DNA of 43,210 nt from Halococcus salsus (GTDB taxonomy: Archaea; Halobacteriota; Halobacteria; Halobacteriales; Halococcaceae): assembly GCF_009900715.1 (NCBI RefSeq), contig NZ_JAAAJC010000008.1, forward strand, positions 27,044-70,253, written 5' to 3'. Position numbers and translations under genes: made by a program. Below are positions 3,344 through 23,237 of this stretch, in pieces. The notes beneath the pieces were generated by a model, which worked only from the letters and a program-made list of their open reading frames with translations, was not told the DNA's origin and made no database searches. Positions within the stretch are counted from its first letter, which is position 1, and each line of letters begins with the position of its first letter.

Positions 3344-4171
3344 ATGGTACCTAGTCAACCGATTGCAGAGATATCCAAGTCGAATCTCCTCGACAAAATT
3401 CTTGAGGATGAGTCACATGACTTTCTTTGCATTGGGTTCAATGAAGCTCTCGTTGAGGCGCTCATCACCGTACTCGAGGAAAGAGATGACCCACCGACTG
3501 TCCATCTCCTTGCGACCACATCAGTATTGAGATGGGTTCGAGACGATTTCGACCTGGCGAGCGGGGCTGCAGACCTCGTCGAGAGTGGGACTCTCTCGAT
3601 TCAGACGGAGGAAGGCGCACTCGAGAACCAATTGGTCATCTCTGGAGGATCAGTTGTCTCGCTCGTTACCGCTAGTGAGCACTCGGTAGGACTCCCGACT
3701 GAGCATGAGGAATTCGTCGGTGCAGTGAATGAGAAATGGACTGACCGTTGGAACCAGGCCGAAGAGTTCTCCCTCCGAACCCCAGGACGCTCACGGATTG
3801 AAGAGTCGCTCAATGAGGAATTCGGCTTGGAGGTCGAAACGGATTTCCGAGCGATGCTTGACGCTGTCGAGAACACTCATAGCGATGAGAACCTTGACGT
3901 GGTGGATATCTGCCTTCTTGTCGCTGCCAAGCACGAACTCCTCCTCTACGATATCTCGAACTGGGGCGAGGAGGTCGGCGTTGCGAGCAAGGCAACCTTC
4001 TCGCGAGGGAAGACCACTCTCGAAGAAAATGGTCTTATCGAGACCGAGAAGGTCCCGATCGACGTTGGTCGGCCGCGTCTCCGACTCCTCCTCAGTAAGG
4101 ATGAACTGCAGGACGCTGATATGGACGCTCTCCCAGATGTCGCTCAGCGATTGCTCTCAAAAGCGGCATAG
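3344..4171 (+). CDS. TbsP-like transcriptional regulator (DUF5821), copy 1
   Basis: This 275-aa protein aligns along its full length with the gene at 8096-8929. Shared blocks include the N-terminal GF.E half, 'LRWVRDDFDLAS', and the C-terminal winged-helix region LLVAAKHELLLYDIS...TFSRGKT.LEE.GLI followed by EKVPIDVGRPRLRL. This matches the haloarchaeal family now called TbsP (formerly DUF5821), reported in Haloferax volcanii to act with TrmB on the glycolytic/gluconeogenic gene gapII. It should bind DNA as a small cytoplasmic regulator; its targets here are unknown. Compared with copy 2 it has more AT-rich codons and a diverged N-terminus, suggesting acquisition or relaxed evolution in the accessory zone. 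Confidence 0.8.
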   Translation: MVPSQPIAEISKSNLLDKILEDESHDFLCIGFNEALVEALITVLEERDDPPTVHLLATTSVLRWVRDDFDLASGAADLVESGTLSIQTEEGALENQLVISGGSVVSLVTASEHSVGLPTEHEEFVGAVNEKWTDRWNQAEEFSLRTPGRSRIEESLNEEFGLEVETDFRAMLDAVENTHSDENLDVVDICLLVAAKHELLLYDISNWGEEVGVASKATFSRGKTTLEENGLIETEKVPIDVGRPRLRLLLSKDELQDADMDALPDVAQRLLSKAA

Positions 4172-5993: not shown

Positions 5994-6149
5994 TTATGAG
6001 TCGTTACGCTGTTCTGAGATATGATCCCAAATTTCCACGCATCCCGCCCCATCCGCAATATCCTCAAGATGCGCTGATGGTACATCCTTCTCATCGTACT
6101 CATCCAACTCGCCGCTCTCTTTCATCTCATTTTGCTTAGTACTGTCCAT
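5994..6149 (-). CDS. Acidic 'GCxEIW' microprotein (51 aa)
   Basis: ATG 6149 to TAA 5994 encodes 51 residues: an acidic, disordered-looking N-terminus (MDSTKQNEMKESGELDEYDE) and a C-terminal module with HLEDIADGAGCVEIWDHIS. The same module occurs in the 35-aa protein at 21453-21560 as HLADVPDGCGCTEIWEQLS, and I have the impression of similar small proteins in other haloarchaea. The start is chosen by the methionine 2 nt downstream of a 19-bp palindrome, exactly as in the other copy. A TATA-like ATTTAGG at 6173-6179 (reverse strand) lies 28 nt upstream, suggesting a leaderless transcript. Function unknown; the invariant Cys and Trp suggest a binding module. Confidence 0.7.
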   Translation of the reverse strand: MDSTKQNEMKESGELDEYDEKDVPSAHLEDIADGAGCVEIWDHISEQRNDS

Positions 6150-6151
6150 AA

Positions 6152-6170
6152 TTACTCGTTTCGTGAGTAA
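6152..6170. promoter_or_regulatory. 19-bp palindrome, probable operator of the 51-aa gene
   Basis: TTACTCG, a 5-nt spacer and TGAGTAA form an inverted repeat with one mismatch between the arms. It lies exactly 2 nt upstream of the start codon and downstream of a TATA-like box, where a bound repressor would block initiation. The same architecture recurs at 21563-21581. A further half-site-like ATTACTC lies at about 6190. Confidence 0.6.
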
Positions 6171-6403
6171 CTCCTAAATGCGCTAATACTATTACTCTTT
6201 TGTCCCTCAACCGACAGAACAGGGGGAATTAATTATATCTCTGGATTAACGAGCGATGGCACTTACATGAAAAGAGAGACTTATCCCTACTCTACGAATA
6301 CGTGGTTTATGGTGACGTTGATTCTCTTGTCCTGTAAGGTAACAAGTAGCATTTTCTGGATTCAAGAACACCGTGAACTCTTATTCTTTATGGATAGGTT
6401 CCA

Positions 6404-7375
6404 ATGAAGGCACCAACGATTGCTATCACTGGTGCAGCAGGCTATATTGGAAGTTGTATCGTTAAACAGATCCAACGAAACCATCCAAGTTGGAACATCA
6501 CAGCAATCGACAACTTCTATCTCGGTGATGTTCGCCAAATTGGTGATGTTAACGTTCTACACGTTGATATCCGAGACCGAGAACGCCTATACACTGCGCT
6601 TGAGGGGGCTGACGTTGTCATGCATCTCGCCGCAATTAGTGGTGTTGAGGACTGTGCTAATAACCGCGATCTTGCCTATGAGGTAAATGTACTAGGTACT
6701 GGGAATGTTGCGTGGTTCTGTCGCGATAGCGGCATCAACCTCATTTTCCCATACAGTATGGGGGTTATTGGCGATCCGCAGCGGTTCCCTATTACAGTTG
6801 ACCATCCACGGGAACCGTTAAATTGGTACGGTAGGACCAAATTGCTTGGAGAGCAGGTAATTGAAACAATGGCACAAAACGCCTATCCTGCTCATCTATT
6901 CATGAAGTCCAATCTATATGGCCGACATTTGATCGACGGCGAATACGTCTCAAAGGGAACAGTAACGAACTTTTTCCTTGAGCGGGCGCTCAATGGTGAG
7001 ACACTCACTGTCTACGAACCGGGCACGCAGGCTCGAAATTATATCCACGTCAAGGACGTGTCAAATGCCTATATTAGAAGTGCCGAGCAGCTGCTTGAGC
7101 AGCGAAGAAACGGTAATGTGGATGTTGAACGATACGAAATTGCGAGTGATGAAGATCCGAGTGTAATGGAGGTTGCTGAAATGGTCGCGCGAGTTGCGAA
7201 GGAAGAGCGTGGGATTGAAGTGAATATTGAATTGATCGCGAATCCACGAGCGGGCGAAACTATGGTTGAATCGTTTGAGGTGGATACGACGAAATCATTC
7301 AACGATCTTAACTGGAGTGCCGAGCACACACTGGAGCAGACAATACGAGAGCGGCTACAAACTACACAAGGTTGA
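6404..7375 (+). CDS. NAD-dependent epimerase/dehydratase (extended SDR, GalE-like)
   Basis: The 323-aa protein has the N-terminal Rossmann fingerprint ITGAAGYIGS (residues 8-17), an acidic residue ending strand 2 (AIDNFYLGD), HLAAISG near 74, and the catalytic Tyr-Lys pair in NWYGRTKLLGE (Y142, K146). Length and order fit the nucleotide-sugar epimerase/dehydratase branch of extended SDRs, which act on UDP- or dTDP-sugars in the cytoplasm with bound NAD(P). The typical SSS/SST catalytic motif appears as PYSMG (S118). Codons are AT-richer than the chromosomal average and the gene stands outside the glycan locus, so it was probably transferred with its flanks. Substrate not determinable. Confidence 0.85.
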   Translation: MKAPTIAITGAAGYIGSCIVKQIQRNHPSWNITAIDNFYLGDVRQIGDVNVLHVDIRDRERLYTALEGADVVMHLAAISGVEDCANNRDLAYEVNVLGTGNVAWFCRDSGINLIFPYSMGVIGDPQRFPITVDHPREPLNWYGRTKLLGEQVIETMAQNAYPAHLFMKSNLYGRHLIDGEYVSKGTVTNFFLERALNGETLTVYEPGTQARNYIHVKDVSNAYIRSAEQLLEQRRNGNVDVERYEIASDEDPSVMEVAEMVARVAKEERGIEVNIELIANPRAGETMVESFEVDTTKSFNDLNWSAEHTLEQTIRERLQTTQG

Positions 7376-8095: not shown

Positions 8096-8929
8096 ATGAC
8101 AATCAACTCGAACCAAGTAGAGGCGTCGGTTGGTGAAACCCTTCGGACGGTCTTTGCCGAGGAGAGTGGCCCGGTGACTGCAGTGGGTTTCGACGAGGAT
8201 TCGACGCGCGAACTCGTCGAGATGCTCGCCGAGAGCGAGGAGCCGCCGAAAGTGCGCCTGCTCGTCCGGGAAGAGGTGCTGAAATGGCTGCGCGATGACT
8301 TCATGCTGGCGAGTGCGGCAGCGGAGTTGCTCGAAGCGGACACTCTAGAAATACGAGCAGCCACTGACCGGTTAGACGGCGCGGTGGTGGCGCCTGAGGA
8401 GACGGTCGTTTCGCTGCTCACGCCGGACGCCGAGCACAGCGCCGCGCTCGTTACCGACGACGAGGAGTTCGTCGAGGCGGCACGCGAGCGCTGGAACAGC
8501 CGCTGGAAAGAGGGCGAAGCGTTCGATTTGCGGACGCCGGCGTACTCGCGAGTGCTGGAATCGCTCGGTGAAGAGTTCGGCTCGGAGATGGAGTCGGACT
8601 TTCAGACAATTTTGGAATCGGTCGAGAGCACGAATGAAAACGGTAAATTGGACGAGGTGGGGCTGAGTCTCTTGGTGGCAGCGAAACATGAGCAGATGCT
8701 ATACGATATTTCGAGGTGGGGTGAGGATGTCGGTGTCGCGAGCAGGACGACGTTCTCACGCACGAAGACTCAACTCGAAGAGAAGGGATTGATCGACACG
8801 GAGAAAGTGCCGATCGACGTTGGGCGGCCACGATTGCGCTTAGTGGTGGGCGACAAGCGTCTCCGGGAAGCAGATCCTGACGAACTCGCGAGCGTCGCTC
8901 GCGAGATGCTTTCGGCGGCTCCGGTCTAA
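8096..8929 (+). CDS. TbsP-like transcriptional regulator (DUF5821), copy 2
   Basis: The 277-aa protein has the same architecture as 3344-4171 but GC-rich, chromosome-like codons. An N-terminal domain carries VGFDEDSTRELVEMLAE, a central part WLRDDFMLASAAAELL, and a C-terminal winged-helix-like region VAAKHEQMLYDISRWGED...TFSRTKTQLEEKGLI is followed by EKVPIDVGRPRLRL. The family is known in Haloferax as TbsP, a DNA-binding partner of TrmB in central carbon control. This copy is probably the resident gene and copy 1 the divergent one. Its stop is immediately adjacent to that of the convergent gene at 8930. Confidence 0.84.
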   Translation: MTINSNQVEASVGETLRTVFAEESGPVTAVGFDEDSTRELVEMLAESEEPPKVRLLVREEVLKWLRDDFMLASAAAELLEADTLEIRAATDRLDGAVVAPEETVVSLLTPDAEHSAALVTDDEEFVEAARERWNSRWKEGEAFDLRTPAYSRVLESLGEEFGSEMESDFQTILESVESTNENGKLDEVGLSLLVAAKHEQMLYDISRWGEDVGVASRTTFSRTKTQLEEKGLIDTEKVPIDVGRPRLRLVVGDKRLREADPDELASVAREMLSAAPV

Positions 8930-21452: not shown

Positions 21453-21560
21453 TCAGTCCTTGTCGCGCTGCTCGCTCAATTGCTCCCAGATCTCCGTACA
21501 GCCACAGCCGTCCGGTACGTCCGCAAGATGGTCTTCGTCCTCGGTCGTGTCCTTTTCCAT
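21453..21560 (-). CDS. Acidic 'GCxEIW' microprotein (35 aa)
   Basis: ATG 21560 to TGA 21453 encodes 35 residues: an acidic leader (MEKDTTEDED) and HLADVPDGCGCTEIWEQLS, then EQRDKD. The module matches the 51-aa protein at 5994-6149 over about 22 positions, sharing HL.D, DG.GC.EIW and SEQR. This copy has two cysteines in CGC, the other one. The start is 2 nt from a perfect palindrome, the same spacing as the other copy. It is oriented against the DUF2079 gene. Function unknown; size and charge suggest a soluble regulator or adaptor. Confidence 0.7.
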   Translation of the reverse strand: MEKDTTEDEDHLADVPDGCGCTEIWEQLSEQRDKD

Positions 21561-21562
21561 TG

Positions 21563-21581
21563 TTACTCGCTCTCCGAGTAA
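21563..21581. promoter_or_regulatory. 19-bp perfect palindrome upstream of the 35-aa gene
   Basis: TTACTCG, a 5-nt spacer and CGAGTAA form a perfect inverted repeat, extendable to 8-bp arms (21562-21582). The right end lies 2 nt from the ATG. A TTTATG TATA-like element on the reverse strand at about 21598-21604 would put the transcription start inside the palindrome. It should be a repressor site. Confidence 0.65.
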
Positions 21582-21693
21582 CTAGTTGTAGGGGGATCAT
21601 AAATACGTTTCCTGACGACCGAAAACTGTGGAGAGCGGAGGCGTAGGGATCGCTGCCGCGCTTTTGTTTGCCACCCAGAAACTCCGGTACACC

Positions 21694-21855
21694 CTATTCG
21701 GTGAATATTAACAGAGAGAAATCGTCCGCCCCACAATCGGGACACTCCGTATTACCCATCATATGTGAACCGCCATCTGATACGGCGACGGCTGCTATTC
21801 GACCACAGTGGTCGCACTTGCCAGCAGTCTTGTCCCGGTTCGCCATGCTCGTCAT
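21694..21855 (-). CDS. Small zinc-finger protein (53 aa)
   Basis: ATG 21855 (MTSMANRDKTAGKCDHCGRI) to TAG 21694 encodes 53 residues with CDHCG and CPDCGADD knuckles separated by 22 residues, a full four-cysteine ribbon. A second ATG three codons in (21846) is also possible. It lies between the GCxEIW microprotein and the right end of the TnpB element. Its high content of small residues and acidic end fit haloarchaeal zinc microproteins. Function unknown. Confidence 0.65.
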   Translation of the reverse strand: MTSMANRDKTAGKCDHCGRIAAVAVSDGGSHMMGNTECPDCGADDFSLLIFTE

Positions 21856-21956: not shown

Positions 21957-23237
21957 TTAGGGTTCGCGGTTCGTTTGAGCGACCTGTTCTCGCGGGGCGA
22001 AACCGCCCTCGCTACGGTCGAACAGGCGAACCGCTGGCTGTGCCAACCAGCCGTTATCCCTATCCTCTCGCCGAGGATTCGGGAGTACCTTTTGTCTGAT
22101 ATTTTCCGCACCGTTACTGTCGGCATTGGCGACCAATCCGCATTCGTCGCAGACGTACAATCCGCGCTCAACGCGCTGGCTGTCGTCGGTTCGGCCGCAG
22201 GCCGAACACGACTTTGACGTATCCCGTTCGGAAACGGGCTCGACGCTGATACCTTTGACTTCAGCCTTGTAGTCGAGCATCGTCGTGAAGCGGTCGAACG
22301 CCCATCCGTGCAAATCGAGGTTGCCGTGGTCACCCCAGTCGGCGGTTTCACCGTTGTCGTCCTCGCGGATTCCCGCAAGGTCGCCAACAACGATTGTTCC
22401 AACGTCGCGCTTGGCACACTCTGCGACAATCGTTTTTGAGAGCGTATGCAGGAAGTGCGTCCGCCGGTCGGTGCGCTTTCGATCGAGTCGCCGCGCTTCG
22501 CGCGACGAACTCTTATCGCATTCAGCGCGCTTCTTGGCGAAGTAGTATTCGTCCTCCTTGAGCGCGCCGCCGGGATACAACAGGGATTCACCACCGAACG
22601 ACACGGCGGCGAAGTTGCATATGCCGAGGTCAATCCCGGCAACTTCGTTGCCGGACGACTCTGGCACATCAACCTCGACACGACAGACGATGTGCAATCG
22701 CCATTCGCCGTGTTCGTGGACTGCGCGCACCTGTTGGACGTTTTCGACCCTCGTTTCGGGCGAACCGATGACATCGTACTCGCAGAGTACGAAGTCGGAC
22801 CATCCGTCCTTGAGGTTCTTGCCCTTCGAGAGTCGGATACGGTTGTTCGCGGCGTCGTGCTTGAAGCCCGCCGTCTTGAATGTGACCGTCGAGCGCGGGT
22901 GTTCGTCGCCGTTCTTTCGGTAGCCGGGCGGGTTCGCTTTCGTGTCCCCGTTGTCGCGCTTGCCGTACCAGCCGGTGAACGCTTCACCGAGTTCTTGGAG
23001 AACTCGTTGACTGGACTGAGAATGAAGGTCCGCGTAGCGTTCGTGGCCCTTGAGGTAGGACATGAGCGCGTTAGCGTCGGGAATTTGGCCGCAGGCATCC
23101 CAGACACGTTGGACGGTCCACCGCCCAACGTTCCAGAGTTTCGCGGCGGCGAACCCGAGCGAATCGAGGTCGTCGCACACTTGCGAGTGGTTCCGAACCC
23201 TCGCTCGATAAGTGCGCGTGACCATCGAATCCGCCAT
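21957..23237 (-). CDS. tnpB: TnpB RNA-guided endonuclease
   Basis: The 426-aa protein has TnpB order: N-terminal helical/OB-like part, RuvC-I GIDLG (D203), the RuvC-II region TIVVGDLAGIRED (282-294), a zinc finger with C344/C347 and C363/C366, and RuvC-III NADSNGAENI (D372). TnpB proteins cleave DNA next to a target-adjacent motif using an RNA (omega/reRNA) made from the element's 3' end and help retain the transposon. In the canonical 'VEDL' RuvC-II motif the glutamate position is Gly here (VGDL); E293 nearby might replace it. The start could be this ATG or the ATG 4 codons downstream. The gene looks intact, unlike the second copy at 24524. Confidence 0.9.
   Translation of the reverse strand: MADSMVTRTYRARVRNHSQVCDDLDSLGFAAAKLWNVGRWTVQRVWDACGQIPDANALMSYLKGHERYADLHSQSSQRVLQELGEAFTGWYGKRDNGDTKANPPGYRKNGDEHPRSTVTFKTAGFKHDAANNRIRLSKGKNLKDGWSDFVLCEYDVIGSPETRVENVQQVRAVHEHGEWRLHIVCRVEVDVPESSGNEVAGIDLGICNFAAVSFGGESLLYPGGALKEDEYYFAKKRAECDKSSSREARRLDRKRTDRRTHFLHTLSKTIVAECAKRDVGTIVVGDLAGIREDDNGETADWGDHGNLDLHGWAFDRFTTMLDYKAEVKGISVEPVSERDTSKSCSACGRTDDSQRVERGLYVCDECGLVANADSNGAENIRQKVLPNPRREDRDNGWLAQPAVRLFDRSEGGFAPREQVAQTNREP

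Follow-up and report, generated by a model that had tools for sequence, protein, structure and literature searches.

A class-wide haloarchaeal microprotein, under a common operator with sqd1, as a probable helper of sulfite-using enzymes

A 43,210-nucleotide stretch of the Halococcus salsus genome (assembly GCF_009900715.1, contig NZ_JAAAJC010000008.1, positions 27,044 to 70,253; hereafter the window) contains an open reading frame (ORF) of 35 amino acids (aa), which raises the question of whether so short a frame is a real gene and, if so, what its product might do. A first-pass annotation, made from the letters alone, had placed it on the minus strand with an ATG start and had paired it with a second ORF sharing the same module; both were found as described (copies 1 and 2, Table 1). 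The copies have HL.D..DG.GC.EIW...SEQR in common and are 51% identical over the aligned part. A third copy was identified elsewhere in this genome, on a different contig (G000:C2:451258-451350, E = 4.9e-6).

A search with the single sequence gave matches in 17 of 18 genomes of the same family, mostly with two copies per genome, and a profile search matched the module in 365 of 391 haloarchaeal genomes and in 80 of 86 genera; chance occurrence is therefore excluded. In a sample of the whole phylum, every one of the 76 matched genomes was haloarchaeal, with no match to the module among approximately 310 non-haloarchaeal genomes. The ratio of non-synonymous to synonymous substitution rates (dN/dS) over a 22-codon core was found to be 0.10-0.13 in three sets of related genomes, and the module is under strong purifying selection. 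The 35-aa ORF is a real gene of a conserved haloarchaeal family that is near-universal in its class rather than confined to this genome, with dN/dS far from one. The suspicion that the family is under-annotated was borne out, and gene finders pass over the 35-aa protein. The microprotein gave no match in Pfam or NCBIfam (at E up to 1) or among PDB sequences, and no earlier account of the family turned up in the papers searched. Four or five module copies per genome were observed in three genomes of one genus (G066, G093, G103).

The consensus of the module is HL.D(V/I).DG(C/S/A)GC.E(I/V)WE.LSE.R, preceded by an acidic leader whose length varies, as had been noted from the two window copies. 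The invariant Cys, invariant Trp and optional extra Cys proposed from those copies were seen in 18 aligned members and again in 16, the second Cys and the Trp being invariant and the first Cys position being C, S or A. The helix Trp, Glu, Ser and Arg were conserved to the same degree as the Cys. An AlphaFold model (mean predicted local distance difference test score of 72, and approximately 83 over the helix) predicted a disordered leader and a single helix, residues 21-34, beginning at the invariant Cys.

Both window copies are preceded by an inverted repeat (Table 1). The pattern TACT-N8-GAGTA gave four matches in the window, corresponding to two palindromic sites, against 0.06 matches expected, and these were found solely at the two microprotein starts. 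The whole genome contains two instances of the full 21-base palindrome, and the other full site precedes sqd1 (L062; G000:C2:17644). The layout is constant among relatives, with a B-recognition element (BRE) and TATA box, the operator about 20 bases further on and the start codon two or three bases after it; in some relatives the start codon falls within the repeat (GTGAGTAAC). As an archaeal operator at such a position usually serves repression, its placement would mean that the microprotein is repressed.

The pattern GTTACTN8GAGTAAC, scanned for in 116 haloarchaeal genomes, was present in 36 of them, mostly as two sites per genome, compared to one hit in the same scan for the reversed pattern used as a control. 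Among 31 sites whose surroundings were read, 17 immediately precede the microprotein and 12 immediately precede sqd1 (three of the sqd1 sites, L203, L215 and L219, having been assigned by eye from the sqd1 N-terminus), with the remaining two found elsewhere and possessing non-palindromic cores. The operator is essentially limited to these two genes (29 of the 31 sites read), which make up a two-gene regulon. By sequence comparison, the sqd1 product is identified as a UDP-sulfoquinovose synthase, matching plant SQD1 in the PDB with E = 3e-71 and scoring 322 bits against NF041015, which is below that model's strict cut-off of 575. The operator was found in 34 of 42 SQD1-positive genomes versus 2 of 74 SQD1-negative genomes (p = 3e-19), although p-values for the SQD1 associations are overstated because related genomes are not independent. 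At least two module copies were carried by 35 of the 42 positive genomes and 8 of the 74 negative ones, the mean number of copies being 2.3 with SQD1 and 1.0 without.

The motif of the sugar-sensing TrmB of Halobacterium is TACT-N7/8-GAGTA (PMC4158304), and the window sites TACTCGGAGAGCGAGTA and TACTCACGAAACGAGTA agree with a TrmB-type operator in both sequence and spacing. Divergent from the microprotein, many genomes have a gene for a TrmB-type winged helix-turn-helix protein of approximately 280 aa, whose C-terminal part gives a weak PLD match. The operator lies between this regulator and the adjacent microprotein in 28 of 29 loci read, the exception being a diverged copy (L085), and was not seen at roughly ten named regulator loci where no microprotein is adjacent. 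This TrmB-like PLD-domain protein, so often encoded next door, is most likely the binder of the operator; in the Halococcus genome it is encoded away from the microprotein copies (G000:C1:1168452). OxsR, a thiol regulator, was considered as the divergent TrmB protein and rejected, its motif being a different, CG-rich one (PMC9426492). The sugar-sensing TrmB regulon was also tried as the principal explanation, given the fit of the operator to its motif, and was dropped. Two small TrmB targets, HAH_0188 and HAH_2805, are known in Haloarcula hispanica (PMC10817205); identity with HAH_0188 was abandoned, as no motif-bearing member of the microprotein family was found at 150-210 or 220-240 kb of what is presumed to be the H. 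hispanica chromosome; the motif-bearing copy there lies at 1.15 Mb, adjoining the TrmB-PLD gene.

Gene neighbourhoods were examined in 41 regions from many families, drawn from the higher-scoring hits and not at random. In 23 of these the module is divergent from a ferredoxin-type nitrite/sulfite reductase, NIR_SIR (PF01077, PF03460), and in four (L131, L132, L133, L157) the microprotein forms an operon with a rhodanese-rhodanese-NIR_SIR protein and an FrhB/FdhB subunit. A further seven regions are SQD1/TrmB-PLD clusters, three contain fusions in ComA/ComB operons, three have DUF7119 and/or DUF6360 neighbours only (one being the region of the third Halococcus copy) and one has other neighbours. 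The module is strongly linked to sulfite through four separate contexts, namely NIR_SIR, the rhodanese/FrhB operon, SQD1 and the ComA/ComB operons, whose products act in making sulfolactate. Aligned with tobacco nitrite reductase, the divergent NIR_SIR was found to have ACGD and NLPRKWK at the positions of Met175 and Asn226, two active-site positions at which we take these residues to be sulfite reductase-like. A 3'-phosphoadenosine-5'-phosphosulfate (PAPS) reductase, as a source of sulfite, was seen beside the module at none of 17 loci.

In the F420-dependent sulfite reductase Fsr, a sulfite reductase domain is combined with one of FrhB type (PMC10229431), and the operon of double-rhodanese NIR_SIR and FrhB/FdhB resembles a haloarchaeal version of this enzyme in split form. 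Immediately upstream of the module at sulfite-reductase-linked loci, a second mini-ORF of approximately 25-40 aa, ending in ..R(Q/D)H.(S/P)AD(V/A)APELY(E/D).., was observed at 10 of 27 loci (L134, L136-L138, L150-L152, L161, L164, L165), with its stop often overlapping the module start (ATGA); it is perhaps another microprotein of the same system. Many sulfite-reductase-linked copies were also seen to have upstream, in place of the TrmB-type operator, a conserved G(A/C)TTAC(A/G)GGnGAGnGCG..TTTAT element (for example L122, L150, L151, L155, L156 and L118).

Few haloarchaea have true ComA-like genes (3 of 391 genomes), with one module found per true ComA operon. In one genome (G002) the module forms a C-terminal fusion with ComA (PF02679), whereas in another (G012), and in a second member of its genus (G011), it is fused to ComB (PF04029) in an operon of ComA-VOC-ComB. 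A further genome (G237, L191) has ComA-VOC-ComB followed by a free microprotein of 52 aa. The proposition that all haloarchaeal ComA proteins carry the tail proved false, since a common ComA-like paralogue (23 of 194 genomes) is without the module. In many genomes this paralogue (L167-L189) adjoins an MmgE/PrpD-like gene, and it ends in ..NLFVDNSQIVELECMRSGLWGK; it is probably not a phosphosulfolactate synthase.

The microprotein probably acts as a small helper, bringing sulfite to enzymes which use or reduce it or which make sulfonates from it. ComA, SQD1 and sulfite reductase have no common fold or cofactor and share only sulfite, so that a mobile docking Cys peptide would fit all of these contexts, fusions included. 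From the computed conservation, selection, gene contexts, fusions and two-gene regulon, we infer docking, transfer of sulfite by Cys and the identity of the regulator as follows. The 35-aa ORF would encode, in free-standing form, a module that serves sulfite metabolism throughout the haloarchaeal class, with the window copies belonging to an SQD1-type branch. The Trp helix may dock on SQD1, on ComA/ComB complexes and on siroheme sulfite reductases, while the invariant Cys may hold or position sulfite, possibly as S-sulfocysteine, which would then be handed over to the enzyme without being free in the cell. A regulator on the operator would cover the transcription start and the start codon, keeping the microprotein and sqd1 repressed together until sulfoquinovose is needed. 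Taken as a whole, this combination of docking, Cys-held delivery and operator repression is put forward tentatively, at a little under an even chance of being correct.

A dedicated sulfite-carrier module comparable to an acyl carrier, in which a single Cys peptide, whether free or part of a fusion, supplies sulfite to enzymes of three unrelated types (UDP-sulfoquinovose synthase, phosphosulfolactate synthase and siroheme sulfite reductase), is possible, though with the balance somewhat against it. What donates sulfite to UDP-sulfoquinovose synthases in vivo is recognised as an unsettled matter (PMC4388408); if the carrier existed it would supply this missing donor, at least in haloarchaea, and the module is at any rate a candidate for the sulfite-transfer step of sulfosugar synthesis. 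Given the toxicity and reactivity of sulfite, such guided transfer would represent a general principle. The analysis offers a testable function for a near-universal family absent from Pfam and NCBIfam and describes a two-gene regulon with a defined operator, and it shows that genes for 35-50 aa can be assigned to a pathway by regulon and fusion evidence alone.

Several findings weigh against sulfite delivery under this operator. The exact operator is missing from 8 of the 42 SQD1-positive genomes, one small genome (G038) has SQD1 and no detected module, and 26 of the 391 haloarchaeal genomes gave no match in the profile search. The operator fits the sugar-sensing TrmB motif as well, and overall the divergent NIR_SIR resembles plant nitrite reductase more than it does sulfite reductase. 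Where the module is fused to ComB, its partner is a phosphatase that makes no use of sulfite itself, and a scaffold role would therefore serve equally there; a Cys carrier alone also leaves the invariant Glu, Trp and Arg unexplained. The main rival is a non-covalent adaptor or activator that docks on sulfite/sulfonate enzymes, assembling or stimulating them, and carries no sulfite, with a Cys that is structural or contacts the partner. This is doubtful but deserves serious weight, as it would account for helix residues as conserved as the Cys and for fusion to ComB as well as ComA, and plant SQD1 has been isolated in complex with ferredoxin-dependent glutamate synthase (PMC4388408). However, the Cys is invariant whereas its neighbouring Cys varies freely, and it begins the helix in the AlphaFold model, a usual place for a reactive thiol.

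A regulatory peptide, that is, a CP12-like inhibitor or redox switch turning sulfite enzymes off or on, would agree with the size, acidity, disorder, optional Cys pair and short Trp helix of the module, which recall the layout of CP12, and with transcription co-controlled with one enzyme. It is nevertheless unlikely, as the fusions lock the module at 1:1 with ComA or ComB and the Cys pair is not conserved, the occurrence of C, S or A at its first position making a general disulfide switch impossible. Of the proposals made at first pass, membership of a conserved haloarchaeal family stands and an adaptor stays plausible, while the other two have lost ground. A role as a small antitoxin or anti-regulator, such as one paired with the neighbouring TrmB-like protein, would suit the many genomes in which a TrmB-type gene is divergent with the operator between the two genes, but most copies have a sulfite reductase rather than a TrmB neighbour. 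No adjacent toxin gene was found in the 41 regions, where sulfite/sulfonate enzymes or cluster genes are seen and four regions have other neighbours, and the genes constantly found beside the module or fused to it encode sulfite/sulfonate enzymes; this role is considered very improbable. A metal-binding microprotein resembling the one-domain zinc-finger micro-proteins of Haloferax is suggested by the CGC pair of copy 1, and is the least credible of these options: with a single invariant Cys, and neither a CPXCG pair nor another conserved ligand set, a metal site is unlikely. Delivery of sulfite by a docking Cys helix is retained here as the favoured explanation.

The features of the window are collected in Table 1. 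The IS605-type gene near copy 1 makes it possible that a mobile element relocated this copy away from its TrmB-PLD neighbour. Just upstream of copy 1, on the same strand, a 53-aa ORF was observed with two CxxC-type pairs (zinc-ribbon-like). Copy 2 was seen to be flanked by two TbsP-like transcriptional regulators, and the epimerase divergent from it is 59% identical to the third of three epimerases in the sqd1 cluster of a relative.

Table 1. Positions of the microprotein copies, their control elements and nearby features in the window
Feature	Position	Strand	Remarks
Microprotein copy 1 (35 aa)	21453-21560	minus	ORF with ATG start; translation MEKDTTEDEDHLADVPDGCGCTEIWEQLSEQRDKD
Operator of copy 1	21562-21582		palindrome GTTACTCGGAGAGCGAGTAAC, one base ahead of the ATG
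TATA box of copy 1	21599-21605	minus	promoter approximately 20 bases upstream of the operator
BRE-like element of copy 1	21606-21612	minus	part of the same promoter
53-aa ORF	21694-21855	minus	
IS605 OrfB/TnpB-type gene	21957-23237		near copy 1
Microprotein copy 2 (51 aa)	5994-6149	minus	ORF with the shared motif
Operator of copy 2	6151-6171		inverted repeat GTTACTCACGAAACGAGTAAT, directly ahead of the ATG
NAD-dependent epimerase (PF01370)	6404-7375	plus	divergent from copy 2
TbsP-like regulator (PF19138, PF23336)	3344-4171		flanks copy 2
TbsP-like regulator (PF19138, PF23336)	8096-8929		flanks copy 2

Carriers of sulfur on Cys are known, while a class-wide sulfite carrier or adaptor with several unrelated clients is, as far as could be found, undescribed. 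The closest mechanistic likeness is to SoxYZ, in which pathway intermediates are carried on one Cys of a flexible peptide arm (PMC5336275), much as is proposed for the module. SoxYZ differs in being a far larger bacterial periplasmic heterodimer that acts in sulfur (thiosulfate) oxidation, whereas the module would act in sulfonate synthesis or sulfite reduction and is not homologous, with no Pfam or NCBIfam match, SoxY included, at E up to 1. The SoxY-type Cys lies in a flexible Gly-rich segment; the module has G.GC with its invariant Cys, yet this Cys begins a helix in the model. DsrC and TusA are small carriers of the cytoplasm that depend on an essential Cys and serve enzymes using sulfite or sulfur, but they are folded proteins of at least 75 aa with families of their own, none of which the module matches in Pfam or NCBIfam. 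In plants, ferredoxin-dependent glutamate synthase is a second protein complexed with UDP-sulfoquinovose synthase (PMC4388408). It is a large enzyme, unrelated to the module in sequence. CP12 is short, acidic and disordered, with Cys and a Trp helix, and binds metabolic enzymes, its partners being those of the Calvin cycle; it has conserved Cys pairs, whereas the module has C, S or A at the first Cys, lacks the AWD_VEEL signature and gave no match to the CP12 Pfam family. The one-domain zinc-finger micro-proteins of Haloferax volcanii are also haloarchaeal, shorter than 70 aa and contain Cys, but their two C(P)XCG motifs have no counterpart in the module with its one invariant Cys. Judged from its sequence, the module is neither a zinc-finger micro-protein nor a CP12, and it stands outside SoxYZ and every other family tested.
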